Source: Gottschalkiaceae bacterium SANA
GTDB taxonomy: Bacteria > Bacillota > Clostridia > Tissierellales > GPF-1
Assembly (NCBI GenBank): GCA_036323355.1
Contig: AP028876.1
Span: 2,914,001 to 2,978,000 of the forward strand
DNA: 64,000 nucleotides
Reading direction: 5' to 3'
Under the pieces are notes generated by a model. The model had not been told where the DNA came from, did not search any database, and was given only the letters and a program-made list of their open reading frames with translations. Shown piece by piece: positions 17,452 through 28,037 of this stretch. Numbering within the stretch: the first letter of the stretch is position 1; each line of letters starts with the position of its first letter. Position numbers and translations under genes: made by a program.

Positions 17452-18603
17452 TTAGATGAAATGCTTCTTCAAACGTTTCAGTGCCTCTTCAATATCTTCA
17501 GTACTGGATGCGAATGAGATACGCAAGTATCCTTCTCCTGCTTTTCCAAAAGCACTTCCCGGAGTTGTTACCACTTGGATCTCTTCCAAGATTTGTTCCG
17601 CCGCACGTGCGGAATCTACCCCCAAACCTTGTATGTTGACAAAGGCGTAAAAAGCTCCCTTTGGTGCCATACATGAAAAACCAGGCAATTCATTAATTCC
17701 ATTTACCAAAAGATCACGTCTGTTTTTATACTCGGCAACCATTTCATCCACCGCAGATTGCGGACCGGATAAGGCTTCTATACACGCTTGCTGCGCTGCC
17801 GAATTTACACAAGAAGAAAGGTTCTCTTGCAACTTCACCATAGGTTGAATCACTGACTCTGGACCAACTGCATATCCAACACGCCATCCCGTCATGGAAT
17901 AGGTTTTTGAAAAACTGTTCACAGTGATCACATAGTCTTTAAACTCTTCTACTGAACCCAAACTAAAATGTTCATTTCCATCGTAGATCAGTTTTTCATA
18001 AGGCTCGTCAGAAACAATCATAAAATCATGTTTTTTAGCCAAGCCACCAATTTTCAACAATTCATCCTCTTCAATCACAGCCCCAGTTGGGTTGGAAGGC
18101 GAATTGATAATCAACACCTTTGTCTTATCGGTAATTACTTTTTCAATTGCTTCAGCAGTAAGGGCAAATCCATCCTTTTCATAAGATCTTGCTGGAACGG
18201 CTACACCTTCTGCAATACCGATATGTCCATAGTAATTCGGCCAGCAAGGATCAGGAATAATGACTTCATCTCCAGCATTCACAAGTGTCAGCATGGAAAG
18301 CATAAGTGCTTCACCTGCACCCGTTGTTACAACGATATTCTTCAAAGGATCGACAAAAATACGGTTATCTTCCGCCAATTTTTTTGTTAACGCTTGCCGC
18401 AACTCTAAAACACCTGCATTGGATGTATACTTGGTATGTCCTTGGTGTAGAGCCTCACATGCAGATTCGATGATATTGCTTGGTGTGCCAAAACCCGGTT
18501 CTCCAATACAAAGATTAATCACATTTTCATAGTTTCTTGCCAGTTCAAACATATGACGAATACCTGATGCCGGACCACTTAAAGCACGATTACTAATTTT
18601 CAT
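17452..18603 (-). CDS. Class I/II PLP-dependent aminotransferase
   Basis: A 383-aa fold-type I aminotransferase, close to the aspartate/aromatic (AspC-like, subgroup I-gamma) enzymes. Seen: NLCIGEPGFGTP at the N-terminus, TTGAGEALMLSML, DPCWPNY, NSPSNPTGAV, SDEPYEKLIYDG and the PLP-lysine motif SFSKTYSMTGWRVGY. Arg in YLRISFA near the end is the usual carboxylate-binding residue. Its ATG overlaps the TAA of eda by one base and GGAGG of its ribosome site lies inside the end of eda, so the two are translationally coupled. Its specific amino donor and acceptor are unknown, and its presence in a KDG/KDGal pathway is unusual. Confidence 0.85.
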   Translation of the reverse strand: MKISNRALSGPASGIRHMFELARNYENVINLCIGEPGFGTPSNIIESACEALHQGHTKYTSNAGVLELRQALTKKLAEDNRIFVDPLKNIVVTTGAGEALMLSMLTLVNAGDEVIIPDPCWPNYYGHIGIAEGVAVPARSYEKDGFALTAEAIEKVITDKTKVLIINSPSNPTGAVIEEDELLKIGGLAKKHDFMIVSDEPYEKLIYDGNEHFSLGSVEEFKDYVITVNSFSKTYSMTGWRVGYAVGPESVIQPMVKLQENLSSCVNSAAQQACIEALSGPQSAVDEMVAEYKNRRDLLVNGINELPGFSCMAPKGAFYAFVNIQGLGVDSARAAEQILEEIQVVTTPGSAFGKAGEGYLRISFASSTEDIEEALKRLKKHFI

Positions 18604-19259
18604 TATTTCTCCTCCTTAACGATTTTCACTTGCTTCACAATTTCACAAAACTTTCTAGCAGTCTCTTCCACTGCATGGTAATCTCCAGTCTTTACACCAA
18701 CTGTCAATTGTCCTCCAATGCCTAAAGCGTCGGCTCCATTGGCCAGCCAGTCTGCTGCATTGTCCAAGGATACACCACCCGTTGGCATCAGCAAAGCTTG
18801 AGGCAAGGGTGCTTTCACCGCTTTTAAATATTTCATCCCCATGGCACTTGCCGGGAAAATCTTCAAGAGTTCAACGCCTGCATCCATGGCTGTCATAATT
18901 TCATTCAAAGTCATCACACCTGGCGTATAAAGCTTGCTGTATCGATTGCACATTTTGGCAACTTCTATATGGAAGGTTGGACTGACAATAAACTCCGCAC
19001 CGCTTAAAAGGGCAGCTCTTGCTGTTTCTGGATCCAAGACGGTTCCTGCTCCAATCAGCACATCAGTATCCTTATACTTTTTCGAAAGTGTGCGAATGAT
19101 CTCCTGAGCATTAGGCACCGTAAAGGTGACTTCCAAACAATGCATCCCACCACGAATACAAGCCTCACTAGCCAGTATTGCCTCTTCTGCTGTTTCGGTT
19201 CGGATAATCCCAACCACTTGATTGTCTAACATTCGTTTCAAAATTTCATGCTTTCTCAT
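18603..19259 (-). CDS. eda: 2-dehydro-3-deoxy-phosphogluconate aldolase (KDPG/KHG aldolase)
   Basis: A 218-aa class I aldolase, predicted to split KDPG into pyruvate and glyceraldehyde-3-phosphate. The Schiff-base Lys lies in LLKIFPAS, the general-base Glu in CLEVTFTVPNA, and GAGTVLDPETA and TGGVSLDN form the phosphate site. Length agrees with the family. GGAGG precedes the ATG at 19259. A tandem IclR-type operator ends two bases upstream of this ribosome site. It connects both KdgK and DgoK products to central metabolism; enzymes of this family differ in how well they accept the galacto epimer. Confidence 0.9.
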   Translation of the reverse strand: MRKHEILKRMLDNQVVGIIRTETAEEAILASEACIRGGMHCLEVTFTVPNAQEIIRTLSKKYKDTDVLIGAGTVLDPETARAALLSGAEFIVSPTFHIEVAKMCNRYSKLYTPGVMTLNEIMTAMDAGVELLKIFPASAMGMKYLKAVKAPLPQALLMPTGGVSLDNAADWLANGADALGIGGQLTVGVKTGDYHAVEETARKFCEIVKQVKIVKEEK

Positions 19260-19271
19260 AAGTTCCTCCTC

Positions 19272-19308
19272 GTTTCACATTATGAAACACCGTTACCGTA
19301 TTATGGAA
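19272..19308. promoter_or_regulatory. Tandem IclR-type operators upstream of eda
   Basis: Two 17-bp sites exactly 20 bp apart: GTTTCACATTATGAAAC (19272-19288, near-perfect palindrome) and GTTACCGTATTATGGAA (19292-19308). The second overlaps the probable -10 box. The first is 13 bases from the start codon, the same distance as at iclR and dgoK. Confidence 0.7.
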
Positions 19309-19329
19309 AGGAATAAATTGCTTGCGCAA
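19300..19329 (-). promoter_or_regulatory. Probable promoter of the eda operon
   Basis: On the minus strand TTGCGC, an 18-base spacer and CATAAT. The -10 box overlaps the second IclR-type operator. Confidence 0.4.
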
Positions 19330-19330
19330 T

Positions 19331-20095
19331 CTATCCTTGATAACCCATCCGTAATGAAATCTGATAAGCCGCATCCTTAACCAGGTCAACTACCTTTTCT
19401 TCTAAATACTCATAGGTGTAAATCTCCAGGGGTCCCGTTGAACTGATAGCAGCAATTACGTTGCCCGTATAATCATAAACCGGAACTGCTACACATCGAA
19501 TGCCCATCTCATTTTCCTCATCATCAATCGCCCAACCACGGCTTCGAATTAAGCGTAACTCTTCCTTTAATACCTTGGGATCCGTAATGGTATTTTCTTT
19601 CACCTTTGGCATTCCCTTCTCTCGAAGAATTTTATCGACATCCTTTTCGGACATAAATGCCATCATGGCCTTGCCTAATCCTGTATTATGGCACATGGCA
19701 CGTTTTCCAATTTTCGAATACATGCGAATCGTGGAAAAAATTTCAATCTTATCCAAATACACAACATCCCCATTTTCGACAATTCCAAGATGAACCACCT
19801 GACTCGTACGATCCTTCAACTTATGCAGATAAGGCAATGCTTCGGTTTTCAATTCAATATTGTTCAGATATACGCTGCCCAGATTAATGATTTTAGGACC
19901 CAGTCGATAGCGCTTTTCTTCATTGTTCTTTTCAACATATCCCCAGGCAATCAGTGTCGCCAGTATTCTGTGAACCGTGCTTTTGTTCAAGGTTAGTCGT
20001 TCACTTAGTTCCTTAATCGACATCCCCCGCGATTCCATTGACAAGGTTTCTAAAATCTCAAATGCTCGATCAATTGATTGAATGGTATTATTCAT
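19331..20095 (-). CDS. IclR-family transcriptional regulator
   Basis: A 254-aa regulator with an N-terminal winged helix (about 1-65: AFEILETLSMESRGMSIKEL, LNKSTVHRILATLIAWGYVEK) and a C-terminal IclR effector domain (about 75-250: VVHLGIVENGDVVYLDKIE, GLGKAMMAFMS, RGWAIDDEENEMGIRCVAVPV, ISSTGP). It lies between dgoK and eda on the same strand. Tandem palindromes stand in front of dgoK, iclR itself and eda, so it most likely controls all three transcripts, including its own. A KDG- or KDGal-type effector, as in KdgR, is a reasonable guess from context. Confidence 0.9.
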   Translation of the reverse strand: MNNTIQSIDRAFEILETLSMESRGMSIKELSERLTLNKSTVHRILATLIAWGYVEKNNEEKRYRLGPKIINLGSVYLNNIELKTEALPYLHKLKDRTSQVVHLGIVENGDVVYLDKIEIFSTIRMYSKIGKRAMCHNTGLGKAMMAFMSEKDVDKILREKGMPKVKENTITDPKVLKEELRLIRSRGWAIDDEENEMGIRCVAVPVYDYTGNVIAAISSTGPLEIYTYEYLEEKVVDLVKDAAYQISLRMGYQG

Positions 20096-20108
20096 ATCTT
20101 CACCTTCC

Positions 20109-20145
20109 GTTTCGTATTATGAAACTGCGTTATAATACCATATTA
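20109..20145. promoter_or_regulatory. Tandem IclR-type operators upstream of iclR
   Basis: GTTTCGTATTATGAAAC at 20109-20125, and a weaker copy GTTATAATACCATATTA at 20129-20145, again with exact 20-bp spacing. The pair lies 13 bases upstream of the iclR start, consistent with autoregulation. Confidence 0.65.
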
Positions 20146-20168
20146 CCGTCTGAAAGCGACCTCGTCAA
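20140..20168 (-). promoter_or_regulatory. Probable iclR promoter
   Basis: Minus strand: TTGACG, 17-base spacer, TAATAT. The -35 box lies in the last codons of dgoK and the -10 box overlaps the weaker operator copy. Confidence 0.5.
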
Positions 20169-21151
20169 CTTCGAATCGACAAACCTTCAAACAGCTTAAT
20201 CGCCAATGCAGAAGATGCTTTTTCTCTTGCTTCAGAATTTAACATGCAAATGCGGTCTTGTGTCCATCCGTAGCTAAGAAAAACCTCATAATACAATTCC
20301 TGTAGAATTCGATTCCCACCAATCAATATGTCCATATTCATTTCCGCGCGACTCAAAAGCGCCAGTAAATCATTATAGGCCAATGCCCCTGCCAAAAAAT
20401 TAGCTCGCTCATTGTCACTGGTATCTCGAAGTGTATCTAAAACTCGAACCAAAAAACAGGCCTTAGTCAAACCATACTTTTTTGCTGCATCCATTCCCAT
20501 CTTAATAAAATCTGGGTCAATCGTTTGAATCAAACTTTCCGATAACGAATCAGAAAGAATTGTATGTCCGCTGATTGCAGCCAACAACTCGCCCGTTAAG
20601 GTCGTACAGCAGCTTTGAATTTTTTGGTTCTCATCGACAAATACAAACTTGGTATGAGATCCTGGAGAGACAAAAACAAAGGCCTCTTCCATCTCTTGAA
20701 TAATACCTGCACCCAAGGCTTCAGCCTCTTCGCCTCTCATCATATCCAGTTGTCCAACCAAATCGACTACTTTGGGATCGATCTTATTTTTCACTCCTGG
20801 AATGAAGTAAATCGGCTTTTCCACAATCTCAAGAAAAACGATTGCCTCCATGCCGGATGCAAGTTCTTCAATTCCAACCGGTGTTGGCAAATGAGGAATC
20901 TCGATTAAACCCAAATTTGATGTGATCATACCTGATGCCAAAATGGCATGGGTCTCTTCTAATGTTTTTTCTGCCTTCTCTAGACATTCTGTAATTGCAT
21001 CACGCAAAGCAACTTTCAATCGCTTATTGTTGCCATCTATAGCTGTCATCCGTACCCCGGCTTTTACCTTCACGCAAGATCGGATTTTCCCTTTTTCTAT
21101 GTAACGGACTCTCATGTTCGTCGTTCCAGCATCTATTGTTACATAGCCCAT
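20165..21151 (-). CDS. dgoK: 2-dehydro-3-deoxygalactonokinase
   Basis: A 328-aa kinase of the DgoK family (ASKHA-type ATP fold), predicted to phosphorylate 2-keto-3-deoxygalactonate. The N-terminal phosphate-binding motif IDAGTTNMRVR, ILASGMITSNLGLIEIPHLPTP, MRGEEAEALG, VFVSPGSHTKFV and the TGELLAAISGHTIL segment are all DgoK signatures. No fused aldolase domain is present. CGGAGGG-type sequence precedes the ATG. It is the first gene of the cluster and has the most elaborate operator region, four sites in a row. With kdgK in the same cluster, both epimers of the keto-deoxy acid can be phosphorylated. Confidence 0.85.
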   Translation of the reverse strand: MGYVTIDAGTTNMRVRYIEKGKIRSCVKVKAGVRMTAIDGNNKRLKVALRDAITECLEKAEKTLEETHAILASGMITSNLGLIEIPHLPTPVGIEELASGMEAIVFLEIVEKPIYFIPGVKNKIDPKVVDLVGQLDMMRGEEAEALGAGIIQEMEEAFVFVSPGSHTKFVFVDENQKIQSCCTTLTGELLAAISGHTILSDSLSESLIQTIDPDFIKMGMDAAKKYGLTKACFLVRVLDTLRDTSDNERANFLAGALAYNDLLALLSRAEMNMDILIGGNRILQELYYEVFLSYGWTQDRICMLNSEAREKASSALAIKLFEGLSIRS

Positions 21152-21370: not shown

Positions 21371-24300
21371 TTATTCAATTTCCGAGTTCTTGGCCAATCG
21401 TTTCTTTCTTTTCTTCTTCAAAACAAGTCTTAAAACGATTGCAAGTACAAGCATCGCTGCACCAATATAAATCCGAATATCCGTCGTTTTCTCATACACG
21501 GTAAATACAAATCGCTCCTTTGGCCACTGAAACACAAGATAACTACCATCCTCTACTGTATCTAGCGTTTGCCAGCCATTACCTACCCAAGCATACAATT
21601 CATACTCGTTTTCTTCTGGTAGATGAACTCTGAATGTATAGCCCTCATTTAGAATTTCATTCCCTTTAATCTCTACCTGATATTGACTGATTTTATTCAT
21701 ATCAGTAAGAAGCTCACTCTCAATATCATGATCCCTCTTCATTTCAAGGGATGCACCAGGAGTGAACATCCCCTCTACCAGAAGGTCCGCGATCTTTCCT
21801 TCATCTTTACAGGCAAGAACTTGTTCCAATGGAATATATTCTGCTACAATCGTATCCGGAAATATCAACTGATCAAATTCATATTCCGGCCACTGACCAA
21901 AATACCCAGGCTTATCAGGAAGTTCCGGTAATTCTTCACAAGATATGTTTTCCTTATACTCAAATGGATACTCAGCCACAGTCTCTTGATCGACAACAAA
22001 GGTCAACTTCAGTTGCTTAAATGCTTCAGGCAAGTTCTCATCCTGGAGTAAATACTCATAACTAACCGGTTCTGCTTTTCCTGCATAGCTAATGCCGTCA
22101 ATCCCTGCCCATTGATCACTAACAAACTCATTATTTGAGATAATCGCTTGCGGCTCCGCTTCCTCTGACCCATTTTCTAAATCTGATTGTTTTTCACTTT
22201 TTTCAGACATGCCATCTTGAACATCGCCTGCAATCATACCAATAAATTCCACTGCATTCTCAATTGTTGCCATTGAGCGACAACCAACAATTTCTACTCC
22301 ATATCCAGCAATGCCACCGATATAATCTAGCCCTGACAAATGACTTAAAGAATAACTATTGCGAATCATCGAATAGGAGCCACCTGCAATACCGCCAACA
22401 TAGTTGCCAGCCGTGCTAATAACTTTACTTTTATTAAAACATTCAAATAAACTGCCCAGATCCATACGACCCACAATTCCGCCAGCATAATTTTTTTTCG
22501 CAGTAATGAAACCCATATTTTGACATTCTGCGAGAACACCCTTTGTCTGAAATTGAAAATTGATTACATTGCTTTCCGAAGATGTCAAATCGCCTTCCGG
22601 ATCAAAATCATAATCAATAGCAAGGGCACCCGATATACCGCCGACATTGATATCACCACTAACACTACCTCGATTTGTGCAGTTGAGCACATATCCAAAG
22701 GCCGGTTTCATCTTTTCAAATTTTTCTGCATCAGCTTCTGATAATTCCTCATCCGAAATATCATTAAATATTTCTCGATCTTCGTCCATGGAATTCCGAT
22801 ATCCTTCTTTGATCAAATCGACGACCACAAAAACCTGGTCATTAATGGTGCGAAGATCATTTGATAACTCATCAACGGTATCCGTGGCGACTTCATTTAA
22901 CTTTGACATCTCTATAATCAGTTTGTCACCCGAGACGAAAAGATCTTTTTTTGCAGCATCCACACTTTCGCCTAAGAGAGAGAACTTAGGGGCTCCAATC
23001 GATGCCTCACGATCTAGCGTTTGCTTCATTTGATTGACAGCCAGTGTAAAATGCTTGCTTGCACTTTCAAACTTACGACTTGCCTGAGAGAAGTTATCCA
23101 TCCCATGCCCCATCATCTCCGAAGCATTTTCAAAACGAAGAGCCGCGTCGTGGAAATCTTGAATTCCCCGATTGAACCAATCAAGACTTGTTTGGAAATA
23201 AGAAGATGCCTGGCGAAAGTATGTCATGGCCAGCGAAATTTCTTCCGAGTCTTTTTCATACTCTTTTTGTAAATTCGTAAGGGCTTTATCCATTTCGCTT
23301 GCCGCTAAATCAAAATTAATGCGTGCTGTGTCCAAATCCTCTTTTGTCTGATCAATAATTTCATCTATATCCGTATGAAGAGGGTCTTCAGCCGCTGATA
23401 GAATATCCGTCATCTTCGACAAGGCATCCGTTAGCGCACTCATCCCTGTTTTTATTGCTTCCATACCACTTTGAATCTCTTCAATGGCTTGATCCAGTGA
23501 CTCGTTATTAGTGATAGCTGCGTTCAGATGATCAAAGCCTTCTTGCATCTGATTGGCACCCTCTTTAATTTCATTGATGGCAGCACTAAAATCTGTCAAA
23601 CCTTCATTGATATCTACAATCCCTTTTTCAACTGAATCACCAGCCATAGCCATACAAATAAGCCCTACATTCATGGCATCCAATCCCGATGTAATGTCAA
23701 TCGAACCTGCCTCGACTTCCTCCGTAGCACGTTCAAAGTCAGTCAATACATGGTGTATGCGATCCATTGTATTGTTAATGGTTTCAATATTCTCATCGGC
23801 AAAATTTACGGTTCTATCGGATAAAATCTCCATTCGATCCGCGAGATTAGCAACAGATCGATTAACCGTTTCAATCTGACCGTTTATAGCTTCATTGCTA
23901 CTATCAATATCATTATACGTTTCATCAATATTCCTTTGTAGCGTATCAATTTCTTTCTCTAGCTCCCGAAAAAAATCATCGTCACTTTTAATCACCTGGT
24001 AGGGTTCCATCTGCCCAACGATTCCACCTACGTCTTTACGACCAAATACATCGCCATAATTAACGCTTGAGCCGATAAATCCGTCTTGTCTGCCGGCAAT
24101 TCCGCCTACATTATAGCCAACATGTGGATATCCCACAACACCCTCATTCACACAGCCTTCCATAATTCCACGGTTAAATCCAGCAATGCCGCCAGAGTTT
24201 GTAGAAGTAATGATCTCCTCCGATGCATTCATTTCACTAATGCTAATTTCTTCTAGTTTCAGTGTTGCCGGGGTGACCGTTGTATTAACAGCTCCCTGAT

Positions 24301-24898
24301 TTATGCAGTTCTTAATCAGCCCATAATTCTCGCCGACAATCCCCCCCGAAAAGTTTTCTCCCGTCAGTTTTCCTGTAAATGTAGACCCTATGACCTGGCC
24401 AGTTTCTTCATTTTTGGCCACGATTCCACCCACATGGTTTTTCCCAATCAGGATGCCGTATACTTGACAATTTTCAATAATACCTCGATTTTCACCAGCA
24501 ATTCCGCCGATTCGATTCTCCGTTCCTGTTGGTTGAATATTAACTTCAACCTTTAAATTTTGCACAAAGCCTGTGCTTTGAATATATCGAAACAAGCCAA
24601 AAGTGGAACCCTCATGAGTCAGCTTAAGATTAGAAATGGTATAATCATTCCCATTGAACTCTCCACCAAAAGTCGGGATCCCCCGAAAATCTTCATCACT
24701 GATCTTAATATCCCGATTTAAAACAACCTTTAATTCTTGAGAATATGTGTCTAGGGTACAATTTTCGGCCAGAGCTAGAAGATCAGCTTCATTATTAATA
24801 AAATATACACGTTCTTCAAGTCCAAATCCTTGCGAATGATAAAGAACCATTAAGAGGCAGGCGACTATGAATAACAAAGCTACTTTATTTTTCTTCAT
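21371..24898 (-). CDS. Large surface-anchored GLUG-repeat and coiled-coil protein
   Basis: A 1175-aa exported protein of unknown function. Residues 1-26 are a signal peptide. From about 110 to 290 there are GLUG-type repeats (GGIAGENRGIIENC, GGIVGENYGLIKNC, GGIAGFNRGIMEGC). From about 300 to 710 there is a long, acidic, amphipathic helical region likely to form coiled coil. GLUG repeats resume at about 725-890 (GGIVGRMDLGSLFEC, GGIAGGSYSMIRNS). A Gly/Pro-rich strand domain (LPDKPGYFGQWPEYEFD) follows, then one membrane helix (YIGAAMLVLAIVLRLVL) and a Lys-rich tail, so the bulk faces outwards. The start at ATG 24898 has GAGGAGG upstream and overlaps the transporter gene by 14 bases, so the two are co-translated. 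A coiled coil inserted between two halves of a beta-helix is unusual. Confidence 0.8.
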   Translation of the reverse strand: MKKNKVALLFIVACLLMVLYHSQGFGLEERVYFINNEADLLALAENCTLDTYSQELKVVLNRDIKISDEDFRGIPTFGGEFNGNDYTISNLKLTHEGSTFGLFRYIQSTGFVQNLKVEVNIQPTGTENRIGGIAGENRGIIENCQVYGILIGKNHVGGIVAKNEETGQVIGSTFTGKLTGENFSGGIVGENYGLIKNCINQGAVNTTVTPATLKLEEISISEMNASEEIITSTNSGGIAGFNRGIMEGCVNEGVVGYPHVGYNVGGIAGRQDGFIGSSVNYGDVFGRKDVGGIVGQMEPYQVIKSDDDFFRELEKEIDTLQRNIDETYNDIDSSNEAINGQIETVNRSVANLADRMEILSDRTVNFADENIETINNTMDRIHHVLTDFERATEEVEAGSIDITSGLDAMNVGLICMAMAGDSVEKGIVDINEGLTDFSAAINEIKEGANQMQEGFDHLNAAITNNESLDQAIEEIQSGMEAIKTGMSALTDALSKMTDILSAAEDPLHTDIDEIIDQTKEDLDTARINFDLAASEMDKALTNLQKEYEKDSEEISLAMTYFRQASSYFQTSLDWFNRGIQDFHDAALRFENASEMMGHGMDNFSQASRKFESASKHFTLAVNQMKQTLDREASIGAPKFSLLGESVDAAKKDLFVSGDKLIIEMSKLNEVATDTVDELSNDLRTINDQVFVVVDLIKEGYRNSMDEDREIFNDISDEELSEADAEKFEKMKPAFGYVLNCTNRGSVSGDINVGGISGALAIDYDFDPEGDLTSSESNVINFQFQTKGVLAECQNMGFITAKKNYAGGIVGRMDLGSLFECFNKSKVISTAGNYVGGIAGGSYSMIRNSYSLSHLSGLDYIGGIAGYGVEIVGCRSMATIENAVEFIGMIAGDVQDGMSEKSEKQSDLENGSEEAEPQAIISNNEFVSDQWAGIDGISYAGKAEPVSYEYLLQDENLPEAFKQLKLTFVVDQETVAEYPFEYKENISCEELPELPDKPGYFGQWPEYEFDQLIFPDTIVAEYIPLEQVLACKDEGKIADLLVEGMFTPGASLEMKRDHDIESELLTDMNKISQYQVEIKGNEILNEGYTFRVHLPEENEYELYAWVGNGWQTLDTVEDGSYLVFQWPKERFVFTVYEKTTDIRIYIGAAMLVLAIVLRLVLKKKRKKRLAKNSEIE

Positions 24899-27308
24899 GT
24901 TCTTCCTCCTCTTTTCCGACATTCACAAAGCCTTTCACATTTCCCCGAATCGTTCCCGTCACATTTGCATCCATATATCCATTTACGTATCCCTGTAGTT
25001 TCCCATTTATTTTCATATTGCCCGACTGACTACTGATCAACCGCTCACGTTTGATTACAAATGCTGTTTTTTCAATAATTGTATCCCCCATCAAAAGTGT
25101 TTGTGGCAGTACACCCAAAACCAGAATCAAAGAAATGATCGTTCCGCGGCCTAGACACACACCAATAGACCCAACGGCATAATTTGATGATAAAAATCCG
25201 ATCAAAATGCCCGCTGATGCAAGTATGGTACCCGAGGTGATAATGGTAGGAAAAGCCTGGTTCAAAGACATGGTCATGGCTTCCTTGATACCCATGCTTT
25301 TCTTTAATTCCATATATCGGCTGGTAATAACGATGGCATAGTCAATGGTTGCACCCATTTGGATTGAGGTCACTACCAAATAACTCAGAAAGAAAATATT
25401 GGTTCCCATAATCGGTGGAAAAGAAAAGTTAATCCATATACTCCCTTGAATTGTTAACACCAAGAGTACAGGCAATCCCGCTGATTTAAAGGTAAATAGC
25501 AGAATAAGCATAACAAAGAGAGCGGACAAAACACTGATCAGAACATTATCAAAAGCAAAAAATGTAGCCAAATCCTGATCACTGGTTGATGCACCTACTA
25601 TATAAGCTTCCTCATAGTACTTATCAATCGTTTCATGAAATTCTTCCAGTACGTCAAAGGTTGCTTCTCCTTCTTCAGGTAAATCCGTAATCAATAATAA
25701 CCGCGTATACTTTTCACTTTCCAATTGATTTTTCCCACGAGACATCTCTTCATACAGGTCATTAATTTCCGTTTCCAAGTCCTCATCGAGAGTCACATAG
25801 CCCTCTTCCTTTTGATCGTAGAGATACATAAACATATCAATCAAAGGAACCGAGTAGTCTTTAAGACCATTAATCAATTTACTATAGGTTTCCTCATGAA
25901 CAGCATATGCACCATAGAGCATTTCTGCCACTTCAATATCCATATCCGTCAATTCAGCAAACTGTCTTGGGGTAAGCTTATCCGCGACCATATAACCATC
26001 TCTTGCTTCCGTATTGGCTAGTCCAACCGTTTCTGTCACCATGTCATAAGACTCTAGCTCTGCAAGTAATTGGGCTTCCTTTTCATAGTCTCCAGAAGGA
26101 ATCACCACAGCCATAATATTATCGTCACCAAATGTAGTTTTAATTTTTTTCTCTGCAAGCAATGTTTTGTTTTGTGCAAAGGTCGTAATGGTGCTATCGC
26201 CAAATACATAATTGGTCTGATTGGACATGTAAAAAGCACCGATCAGAATCACAATAAAAATGGGTGGGATAATGTATCTTGTTTTTCCAACAAAAGCACC
26301 CCAAATAGAGATGTCCGGCACAAAATTCTTATGAACGGTTTTGTCCATCAGACCACTGAAGATCATCAAGAGTCCCGGCATCAGTGTAAAGACCACAAGC
26401 AAACTAAAAACCAAGGCCTTAATCAAAACCATGCCCATGTCAAACCCGACCTCGAATTGCATAAACATCAAGGCCATCAGACTGGAAATCGTGGTTAAAC
26501 TACTCGATGAGATTTCCGGAATTGCCTTTGACAGGGCCTGAATCGCTGCTTCCCTTGCCTCAAAATGCTGTCTCTCTTCTGTAAATCGATGACATAGAAT
26601 AATGGCATAATCAATAGCAAGAGCCAATTGCAAGATGATGGCAATGGAATTTGATATAAAGGAGATCTCTCCATAAATAAAATGCGTACCCATATTTAAC
26701 AGGGCAGCCACACCAAACGTCAATACAAGTACAGGAATTTCCATATACGTTTTTGATGTAAAAAGCAGGACCCCAAGTATAATAAATACGGCAATAACCA
26801 AAACCGTTTTTATTTCCTTTTCCAAATCTGCAGCCATGTCTTCAGTGATTTCACTATGAACATAGGTATCATAATCCTCCAGCAATGCACTCACCTGATC
26901 CATTGCTTCTACGGTTTCTTGATCCTTTTTTTCCTTATCAAAGGTAATCGAGAACAAAGCTGACGCCGCTTTAAAATGTTCTGCACTACCATCAAAGCTA
27001 ATGCTATTCACACCAGGAATCATTAGAATTTGTTCTTCTAATTGCTCTGCCTTTTCATAGGTGATATTGCTGACCATAACACTTGCCATGCCATAGGTCG
27101 TAAACTCATCTTCCGAAATATTCAAACCTTGTCTCGTTTCTGTATCTTCCGAAAGATATTTTGTTATATCATCATTAACATCGACCCATGACCGGGTAAA
27201 AAGGCAAAAAATACAGGCAATCATATAAATAAGAATAAATCCTGTTCTTTTGTCCACAATAATTGTGGATAACTTTTCTATAAATCCAACTTCTTCTTTC
27301 TTTTCCAT
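24885..27308 (-). CDS. MMPL/RND-family transporter with bactofilin-like tail
   Basis: An 807-aa polytopic membrane protein with the two-fold RND/MMPL layout: about 12 helices, large extracytoplasmic loops after helices 1 and 7, and the MMPL proton-relay motif twice (LALAIDYAIILCHRF and MGATIDYAIVITSRY). The sequence after the last helix is unusual: the final 43 residues (about 765-807) carry a short-period pattern INGKLQGYVNG, VTGTIRGNVKGFVNVG, like the repeats of bactofilin/polymer-forming beta-helices, ending in an acidic stretch. AAGGAG precedes the ATG. It is the first gene of a two-gene operon with the GLUG protein and is divergent from a TetR gene. Substrate unknown; MMPL proteins export lipids, peptides or drugs. 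Confidence 0.85.
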   Translation of the reverse strand: MEKKEEVGFIEKLSTIIVDKRTGFILIYMIACIFCLFTRSWVDVNDDITKYLSEDTETRQGLNISEDEFTTYGMASVMVSNITYEKAEQLEEQILMIPGVNSISFDGSAEHFKAASALFSITFDKEKKDQETVEAMDQVSALLEDYDTYVHSEITEDMAADLEKEIKTVLVIAVFIILGVLLFTSKTYMEIPVLVLTFGVAALLNMGTHFIYGEISFISNSIAIILQLALAIDYAIILCHRFTEERQHFEAREAAIQALSKAIPEISSSSLTTISSLMALMFMQFEVGFDMGMVLIKALVFSLLVVFTLMPGLLMIFSGLMDKTVHKNFVPDISIWGAFVGKTRYIIPPIFIVILIGAFYMSNQTNYVFGDSTITTFAQNKTLLAEKKIKTTFGDDNIMAVVIPSGDYEKEAQLLAELESYDMVTETVGLANTEARDGYMVADKLTPRQFAELTDMDIEVAEMLYGAYAVHEETYSKLINGLKDYSVPLIDMFMYLYDQKEEGYVTLDEDLETEINDLYEEMSRGKNQLESEKYTRLLLITDLPEEGEATFDVLEEFHETIDKYYEEAYIVGASTSDQDLATFFAFDNVLISVLSALFVMLILLFTFKSAGLPVLLVLTIQGSIWINFSFPPIMGTNIFFLSYLVVTSIQMGATIDYAIVITSRYMELKKSMGIKEAMTMSLNQAFPTIITSGTILASAGILIGFLSSNYAVGSIGVCLGRGTIISLILVLGVLPQTLLMGDTIIEKTAFVIKRERLISSQSGNMKINGKLQGYVNGYMDANVTGTIRGNVKGFVNVGKEEEEHEEK

Positions 27309-27379
27309 CGCTTGCTCCTTGTTTCGTTTCTAGGTGATTACATTCCTTAAATTATATGCTTATCTTCATTTTTAACCAT

Positions 27380-27433
27380 AGACACATTAGAAAATTTGTC
27401 AAAAATACAGACAGATCTGAAAAATTGTCTAAA
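27380..27433. promoter_or_regulatory. Tandem TetR-type operators between the MMPL and tetR genes
   Basis: Two imperfect copies 29 bp apart with consensus AGACAnATnnGAAAAwTTGTC. The first runs from 27380 to 27404 and the second from 27409 to 27433. Each has outward inverted halves (GACA / TGTC). The second copy covers the -35 box of the tetR promoter, which suggests autoregulation. Confidence 0.55.
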
Positions 27434-27453
27434 AACTAGCCTTATGGTATAAT
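27425..27453 (+). promoter_or_regulatory. tetR promoter
   Basis: TTGTCT at 27425-27430, a 17-base spacer, TATAAT at 27448-27453, 45 bases before the start codon. Confidence 0.65.
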
Positions 27454-27497
27454 TTGACGTACGCAAAAAAACGAAATTTTTCTTATAGGAGGCTTGT

Positions 27498-28037
27498 ATG
27501 AAAGGTGATATAACAAAAGACATGCTCTGTGCATCGTTAAAGAAAAGCCTTGCACATAAGACGCTTGATAAGATCAGTATTAAAGAAATTACAGACGACT
27601 GCGGATTAAACCGACAAACTTTTTATTACCATTTCGAAAATATTTACCAATTGATGGACAGACTATTAAAAAATGAGGCCGTTTCAATATTTCTTGATCA
27701 AGGTATGGATTTGAATTGGCAAGATGGCTTGACATTGCTTTTTGACTACCTAACGGCTAACCGAGAAATGTGTTTAAACGCGTTGACTTCAGTTGGAAAT
27801 CAATATGTTTACCGATTCTTCTATGATGAATTGTATGCCATTATTAAAAATAACTTAGAAAAAACAAAAGAAGGCCACGGCCTTAATGAGAAAGAAAAAG
27901 AACAACTAGCCAAGTACACCGTCATTTCATGGGGCTCTTATATCGTTGCCTGGATGATGGGAATTGTGAAAGAGACACCAGAAGAGATCACAGACTTTTT
28001 AATTGGTCGAATCGGACACGATCATGCAAGAGGATGA
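27498..28037 (+). CDS. TetR/AcrR-family regulator
   Basis: A 179-aa regulator. The N-terminal helix-turn-helix covers about residues 8-50 (KISIKEITDDCGLNRQTFYYHFENIYQLMDRLL), typical of the DhaS-type TetR branch. The C-terminal half is a helical effector/dimer domain (YDELYAIIKNNLE, GSYIVAWMMGIVKETPEEI). AGGAGG lies 8 bases before the ATG. It is transcribed away from the MMPL-GLUG operon, and the shared intergenic region contains tandem operator-like repeats, so it probably represses both itself and the operon. The inducing ligand is unknown. Confidence 0.88.
   Translation: MKGDITKDMLCASLKKSLAHKTLDKISIKEITDDCGLNRQTFYYHFENIYQLMDRLLKNEAVSIFLDQGMDLNWQDGLTLLFDYLTANREMCLNALTSVGNQYVYRFFYDELYAIIKNNLEKTKEGHGLNEKEKEQLAKYTVISWGSYIVAWMMGIVKETPEEITDFLIGRIGHDHARG

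Follow-up and report, generated by a model that had tools for sequence, protein, structure and literature searches.

A clostridial MMPL transporter encoded with an exported GLUG/coiled-coil protein: a possible RND exporter with its stalk in a separate subunit

It is an open question how bacteria with a single membrane carry lipophilic cargo across a thick wall. The closest described systems are mycobacterial RND pumps, the MmpL exporters of drugs and siderophores. In MmpL5, efflux requires a coiled coil of 196 residues that is inserted in the outer domain PD2 of the pump, and the trimer is predicted to assemble a 13-nm tube from it (PMC12501195); in MmpL4 the stalk comes from three coils, MmpS stabilises the trimer, and MmpS4 has an N-terminal anchor (PMC12803245). 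Here we describe a pair of genes in a window of 64,000 nucleotides from the 3.49 Mb genome of Gottschalkiaceae bacterium SANA (contig AP028876.1, positions 2,914,001 to 2,978,000; coordinates below are those of the window unless another locus is named), one encoding an MMPL transporter and the other an exported protein with GLUG repeats and a long coiled coil. The clostridial pump is consistently found beside, or fused with, such a long-coil surface protein, suggesting that its stalk is built as a separate protein; that the pair constitutes an RND exporter with the stalk supplied in trans is a reading that we place slightly above an even chance. A literature search covering few subscription papers returned no description of an MMPL and GLUG/coiled-coil pair.

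Both genes are on the minus strand, at the coordinates given in the first-pass annotation of this DNA, with the partner gene downstream of the transporter gene; the longest form of the partner open reading frame (ORF) spans 21371-24922. The partner likely starts at the ATG at 24898, since GAGGAGG lies six bases upstream. With this start the genes overlap by 14 bases, the figure given in that annotation; with the longest-ORF start the overlap is 38 bases. The parts of the pair are as follows.

24885..27308, minus strand: MMPL/RND transporter, 807 residues, 12 membrane helices in the model, D233-Y234 and D656-Y657, no PD2 coiled-coil insert
24918..25034, minus strand: transporter C-terminal beta tail, residues 759-797, period-4 hydrophobic-x-Gly-x (alignment, AlphaFold2)
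24885..24898, minus strand: overlap of both genes, 14 bases (sequence)
24905-24911, minus strand: partner Shine-Dalgarno GAGGAGG, inside the transporter gene
21371..24898, minus strand: exported GLUG/coiled-coil partner, 1175 residues from ATG 24898 (likely start; longest ORF from 24922)
24824..24898, minus strand: partner signal-peptide-like N-terminal helix (AlphaFold2; sequence by eye)
23984..24808, minus strand: partner first GLUG beta-helix block, residues 39-313 (Pfam, AlphaFold2)
22787..23980, minus strand: partner predicted coiled coil, residues 315-712 (AlphaFold2)
23369-23392, minus strand: probable hairpin tip of the coiled coil, residues 511-518 (helix-break symmetry)
22220..22693, minus strand: partner predicted second beta-helix block, residues 744-901 (AlphaFold2)
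21491..22144, minus strand: partner predicted membrane-proximal beta domains, residues 927-1144 (AlphaFold2)
21386..21478, minus strand: partner predicted C-terminal membrane helix and basic end, residues 1149-1179 (AlphaFold2)

The transporter has the features expected of the MMPL/RND superfamily. It matches the Pfam MMPL family with 127.7 bits (cut-off 20.5), and an AlphaFold2 model built from an alignment of 69 sequences, window included (mean predicted local distance difference test, pLDDT, 78.9), has an RND fold in which 12 long helices are taken to be membrane helices; it also has two outer domains and ends in a tail that consists of two long strands. The best solved folds returned by Foldseek are MmpS5-MmpL5 (8zkp, E 3.1e-23) and MmpS4-MmpL4 (9syj), with 11-14% identity to the best ten structures, so that the predicted fold is that of an MmpL5/MmpL4-like pump. 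Like MmpL3, the window transporter has an Asp-Tyr pair in helix 4 and another in helix 10; D233, Y234 and Y657 are kept in all 69 transporters and D656 in 68 of them. PD2 is 210-213 residues long in every one of the 69, and thus none has the coiled-coil insert of MmpL4 and MmpL5. The best NCBIfam match is the HAE3-type TIGR00921, whose membership we rejected (111.2 bits against a curated cut-off of 351.9). More MMPL/RND-like ORFs are present in the source genome (G000:C1 670995-673040, 1000805-1001293, 2681468-2683717 and 2022345-2022773), three of 1034-1088 residues and one of 457 residues.

A scan of named genomes with the partner matched at least 546 stretches, probably including other GLUG proteins, and the best were kept as 79 loci, selected via the partner. 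A transporter accompanies the partner in all 79, as a same-strand neighbour in 77 and as one gene in two. By longest-ORF limits 76 of the neighbour pairs overlap and one is a base apart; six of the transporters run off a contig end, and that of L067 is split into two ORFs. A Shine-Dalgarno match of at least five bases occurs at a start near the transporter stop in 68 of the 77 unfused pairs, a lenient count as the best of several starts was taken per pair. Some genomes appear identically or nearly so under two identifiers (L034/L035, L031/L036, L095/L169, L106/L170, L076/L164, L092/L160 and L058/L172). As a separate check, 391 genomes of the class were searched once per protein, with a transporter profile built from paired loci. 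The transporter subfamily (E 7.2e-270 or lower) was found in 45 of them, counting the window's genome, and 52 have a match to the partner profile (E 1e-20); the partner is present in all 45 genomes with the transporter, and the other seven are taken for other GLUG proteins, the match there being limited to the first beta-helix part. The partner lies within 600 bases on the same strand for 44 of 46 transporter copies, and for the remaining two the contig ends after 25 and 2 bases. Transporter scores fall from 895 to 354 bits below the subfamily set, so any close relative lacking a partner ought to have been seen. Among 100 relative genomes only four besides the window's have a full-length partner, and a single-protein query found no relative in viral contigs.

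The same pair is thus found in other genomes, and adjacency, co-occurrence and fusion support the dedicated two-gene unit that had been proposed from the window alone. Fused MMPL and GLUG-coil ORFs of ~1,900-2,000 residues, lacking the beta tail, were noted at L126, L128, L129, L138, L095 and L106; such fusions show that the two proteins tolerate a 1:1 covalent link. Strict pairing and overlapping genes could also reflect a transporter that serves its partner through release, folding or modification. RND proteins can act on a protein client, Dispatched being an example, and a Dispatched structure (6tbu) is among the fold matches of the transporter model. We nonetheless hold this to be very unlikely, as a signal-like segment and an anchor are already part of the partner, and as one clade has it fused to the pump, where its release is unlikely.

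The predicted architecture of the partner agrees with the earlier description of an ectodomain in which a coiled coil of ~400 residues interrupts a GLUG beta-helix, closed by a single C-terminal membrane anchor. Pfam GLUG is matched in two stretches with 25.5 bits (cut-off 20.5); run against the genome in six frames, this 28-position model had no match at E 0.001. The AlphaFold2 model (67 input sequences, window included; pLDDT 78.4) has the layout listed above, with membrane-type helices confined to the signal helix and one C-terminal helix, unlike YhgE/Pip; membership of the partner in that family was rejected, with no ABC-2 rows among the best 25 of 36 Pfam rows. A search for kin of the coil through curated families was likewise set aside, as it matched generic coils only. 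Within the coil most helix breaks are symmetric about residues 511-518 (469-475 with 554-559, 428 with 601, and 338-344 with 679-684; a break at 642-653 has no symmetric counterpart), which suits a single antiparallel hairpin whose arms of ~195 residues would extend ~29 nm if straight, at 0.15 nm per residue. Such a predicted rod would, if straight, be long enough to cross the wall, and this strengthens the idea that the pair is a dedicated unit whose ectodomain spans the wall. Measured between fixed anchors on either side of the coil, the stretch is 353 to 599 residues long in the 67 partners.

A second class of partner points to the coil as the shared element. A first search with the window partner returned 30 loci, which are those considered here, and further rows without a locus; 13 of the 30 matched in the coiled-coil part. 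Three of the 13 have no MMPL match in the locus, namely L016 and L030 (both YhgE/Pip-like in look) and L021 (a 406-residue ORF), and the other ten are exported coiled-coil proteins, every one behind an MMPL gene. The second-class partner of L145 matches TIGR03057 (E 1.6e-15), and when used as query at E 1e-20 it gave 40 rows from 34 of 100 related genomes. A locus accompanies 30 of these rows; these loci overlap with the ten of the first search. An MMPL gene lies upstream on the same strand in all 30; in 29 of them it overlaps the partner gene or is no more than 28 bases from it, and in L208 the distance is ~350 bases. The ten rows without a locus comprise two pieces of an already counted gene, G089:C218 and G068:C25 with MMPL upstream, G017 (discussed below), and five others; G068:C25, an open frame listed as 1284 residues, was considered as a fusion and rejected, being two abutting genes separated by one stop. 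Pairs of MMPL and heptad-repeat exported proteins with no visible GLUG, such as L145 5139-9384 (directly behind a TetR-type gene), L146 5717-9953 and L148 5201-9236, are widespread in the related order. We also noted by eye exported proteins with MORN repeats, one near the pair in G001 (L033 3408-4958) and one adjoining a second-class pair in G090 (L223 228-1472).

When the window genome and two congeners were searched with L145, the sole match in each was the coil of the GLUG partner or of its ortholog (E 5.3e-8, 1.2e-5 and 8.1e-4). No Glug match at E 0.01 was found in the three second-class members scanned with Pfam (L013, L015 and L028), and the remaining members are probably GLUG-less as well. 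The element common to both classes is thus an extracellular coil behind an MMPL gene, with GLUG and tail belonging to one class. This bears on a different role for the partner, as a substrate receptor or wall tether in which coil and GLUG capture or hand over a lipid or glycan and the pump moves lipid between leaflets. GLUG beta-helices do occur in surface and binding proteins, and the predicted membrane-proximal beta domains could bind the pump, with the rod merely spacing the head; however, the second class keeps the coil, and its three scanned members without Glug make the coil, not the GLUG part, the element that both have in common, leaving a receptor or tether rather unlikely.

The short-period beta-repeat tail that the first-pass annotation had called bactofilin-like is real, with the consensus G-x-h-x-V-N-G-R-V-R-G-Y-V-S-G-x-V-D-A-x-h-x-G-x-I-x-G-x-V-x-A and a period of 4. 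Of the 69 MMPL proteins aligned, that of the window among them, 62 carry it; the seven tail-less transporters stop 14-22 residues past the conserved motif of the last helix. Tails were found by a glycine-containing pattern, so consensus glycines 1, 7 and 11 are partly imposed, and the glycines outside it are kept at position 15 in 61 of the 62 tails, at position 27 in 58 and at position 23 in 56. Their retention in proteins mostly ~50-60% identical to the window's indicates a repeat that is more than chance. AlphaFold2 predicts strands at 759-775 and 778-797 with moderate confidence (10-residue pLDDT means 57-72), a beta-structured and not an unstructured tail. From RND topology the tail is probably cytoplasmic, in agreement with the fused proteins, in which an extra signal-like segment precedes the exported part. 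In a tree of 83 transporters with the tail excluded, a single change parts tail-bearing from tail-less proteins (branch support 99), and the fused proteins (six rows, four distinct sequences) form one clade within the tail-less group (support 100). Rooted at its midpoint, this quick tree implies that loss of the tail preceded fusion, and another root reverses the direction of that first step.

Polymerisation of the tail in the manner of bactofilin, placing the transporter in the cell, would fit both its conservation and its modelled beta structure, and Bactofilin is the Pfam family touched by most tails (8 of 32 at E up to 1, best 0.0082). These matches are all below cut-off, however, the Bactofilin model has 98 positions where the tail has ~36 residues, and one clade, fused forms included, has kept the pair but has no tail. 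The Pfam scan of the window's own tail listed AFP_2 (E 0.079) as sole match and no Bactofilin match, and no Bactofilin row is among the matches listed for the whole transporter. In a PDB profile search with the tail, a pyridoxal kinase (E 0.02) came ahead of a bactofilin (E 0.26) and of the gp5 spike of phage T4 (E 2.2), the latter two among chance-level matches. We therefore rejected the tail as a true bactofilin (PF04519), and also its co-polymerisation with a resident bactofilin, as a six-frame search at E 0.001 found no separate bactofilin in the source genome. The likeness to bactofilin is one of resemblance, the polymerisation idea is weak and in our estimate highly improbable, and the tail may instead be a small beta oligomerisation element.

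A pump without an insert is strictly linked here to a partner whose coil is about twice the length of the MmpL5 insert, and this is most simply read as a stalk supplied in trans. The MMPL protein would be the ion-driven pump of a two-gene RND export unit, and the partner, exported and anchored by one C-terminal helix, would provide the coiled-coil stalk that MmpL4 and MmpL5 carry in the pump. In the assembly that we infer, a number of pumps and partners (by analogy, probably three of each) would come together, their coils building a rod or tube that crosses the peptidoglycan as a conduit for export. The GLUG beta-helix would be a collar at the base of the rod, and the tail would help the complex to oligomerise or would hold it from the cytoplasmic side. 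The sequence basis for this proposal is the gene pairing, co-occurrence, fusion, lack of room for a PD2 insert, and conserved relay residues.

Several observations weigh against this trans-stalk reading. The pair is patchy, occurring in the 45 of 391 class genomes noted above. The G017 match (E 1.6e-22) is the YhgE-like L030 with no MMPL in the locus, which indicates that such coils also serve other membrane proteins. Coil-to-coil similarity is weak and generic, with SMC and other coils scoring equally or better, and coil length among the 67 partners does not vary in the 7- or 14-residue steps that a conserved hairpin register might give. The partner model has a predicted TM-score of 0.58, with coil pLDDT mostly 56-85, and no PDB fold match at E 0.001 (best E 5.7e-3, mostly long-helix proteins and one beta-helix adhesin). 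No substrate gene is linked to the pair: in a survey of ORFs of at least 100 residues in the fetched flanks of the 79 loci, no neighbour family besides TetR recurs in more than eight, so that no biosynthetic pathway points to the substrate.

The flanks of the pair contain two further features.

27498..28037, plus strand: divergent TetR-family regulator (TetR_C_8; Pfam)
27309..27497, no strand assigned: divergent promoter region with blocks TAGACA (27379-27384) and TGTCTA (27426-27431), candidate operator

The TetR-family gene (TetR_C_8, 64.2 bits), transcribed opposite to the pair, probably controls the unit. The TAGACA and TGTCTA blocks are identical in three aligned congeneric sequences and may form its operator. 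A TetR gene was found by phmmer (E 1e-4) in 29 of the 79 loci, the 79 including nine that lack the upstream flank. In 28 cases the gene is on the opposite strand, and two of these genes lie at a distance of 0.9-1.4 kb. The strand of the pair continues behind it with a four-gene run (17452-21151) whose order is kept in G002 (L034); the genes, which we take to encode an aminotransferase, a KDPG-type aldolase, an IclR-type regulator and a 2-keto-3-deoxy sugar-acid kinase, look like a sugar-acid pathway unrelated to the pair.

More broadly, these pairs may represent a clostridial class of wall-spanning RND exporters in which the stalk is a separate, exchangeable subunit, either GLUG-coil or plain heptad-coil, forming a Gram-positive equivalent both of the tripartite pump of Gram-negative bacteria and of the stalk built into MmpL5, with a new short beta-prism or solenoid tail holding it together on the inside and one lineage reduced to a single pump-plus-stalk protein of ~1,900-2,000 residues; we put this general proposal somewhat short of an even chance. 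If true, the mycobacterial MmpL stalk solution also exists in modular, two-gene form in many clostridia, and the fused versions offer a single-chain target for structure work.

Comparison with known systems places the pair nearest to these mycobacterial pumps. It shares with HAE3-type MMPL transporters its best NCBIfam match but falls far below their cut-off, and with Bactofilin the short h-x-G-x beta repeats of the tail, which unlike Bactofilin is a short segment joined to a transporter. Like the X-X-X-Leu-X-X-Gly heptad proteins and YhgE/Pip, both found by the window partner's coil, the partner has a long extracellular coil, whereas L030 carries ABC-2 type membrane domains and the partner has one anchor helix and an MMPL neighbour. 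The closer parallel, missed in the earlier comparison with bactofilin, is with MmpL4 and MmpL5, where the coiled-coil stalk is part of the pump. In common with MmpS5-MmpL5 and MmpS4-MmpL4 the pair has an RND fold, a long envelope coiled coil, a regulator gene adjoining the operon, and a partner in the operon whose beta domain sits on a single membrane helix. It differs in that the coil is in the partner and about twice as long, the window pump having no PD2 insert, and in that MmpS is small and N-terminally anchored with an Ig-like or beta-sandwich domain, whereas the partner described here, of ~1175 residues, combines GLUG and coil with a C-terminal anchor.

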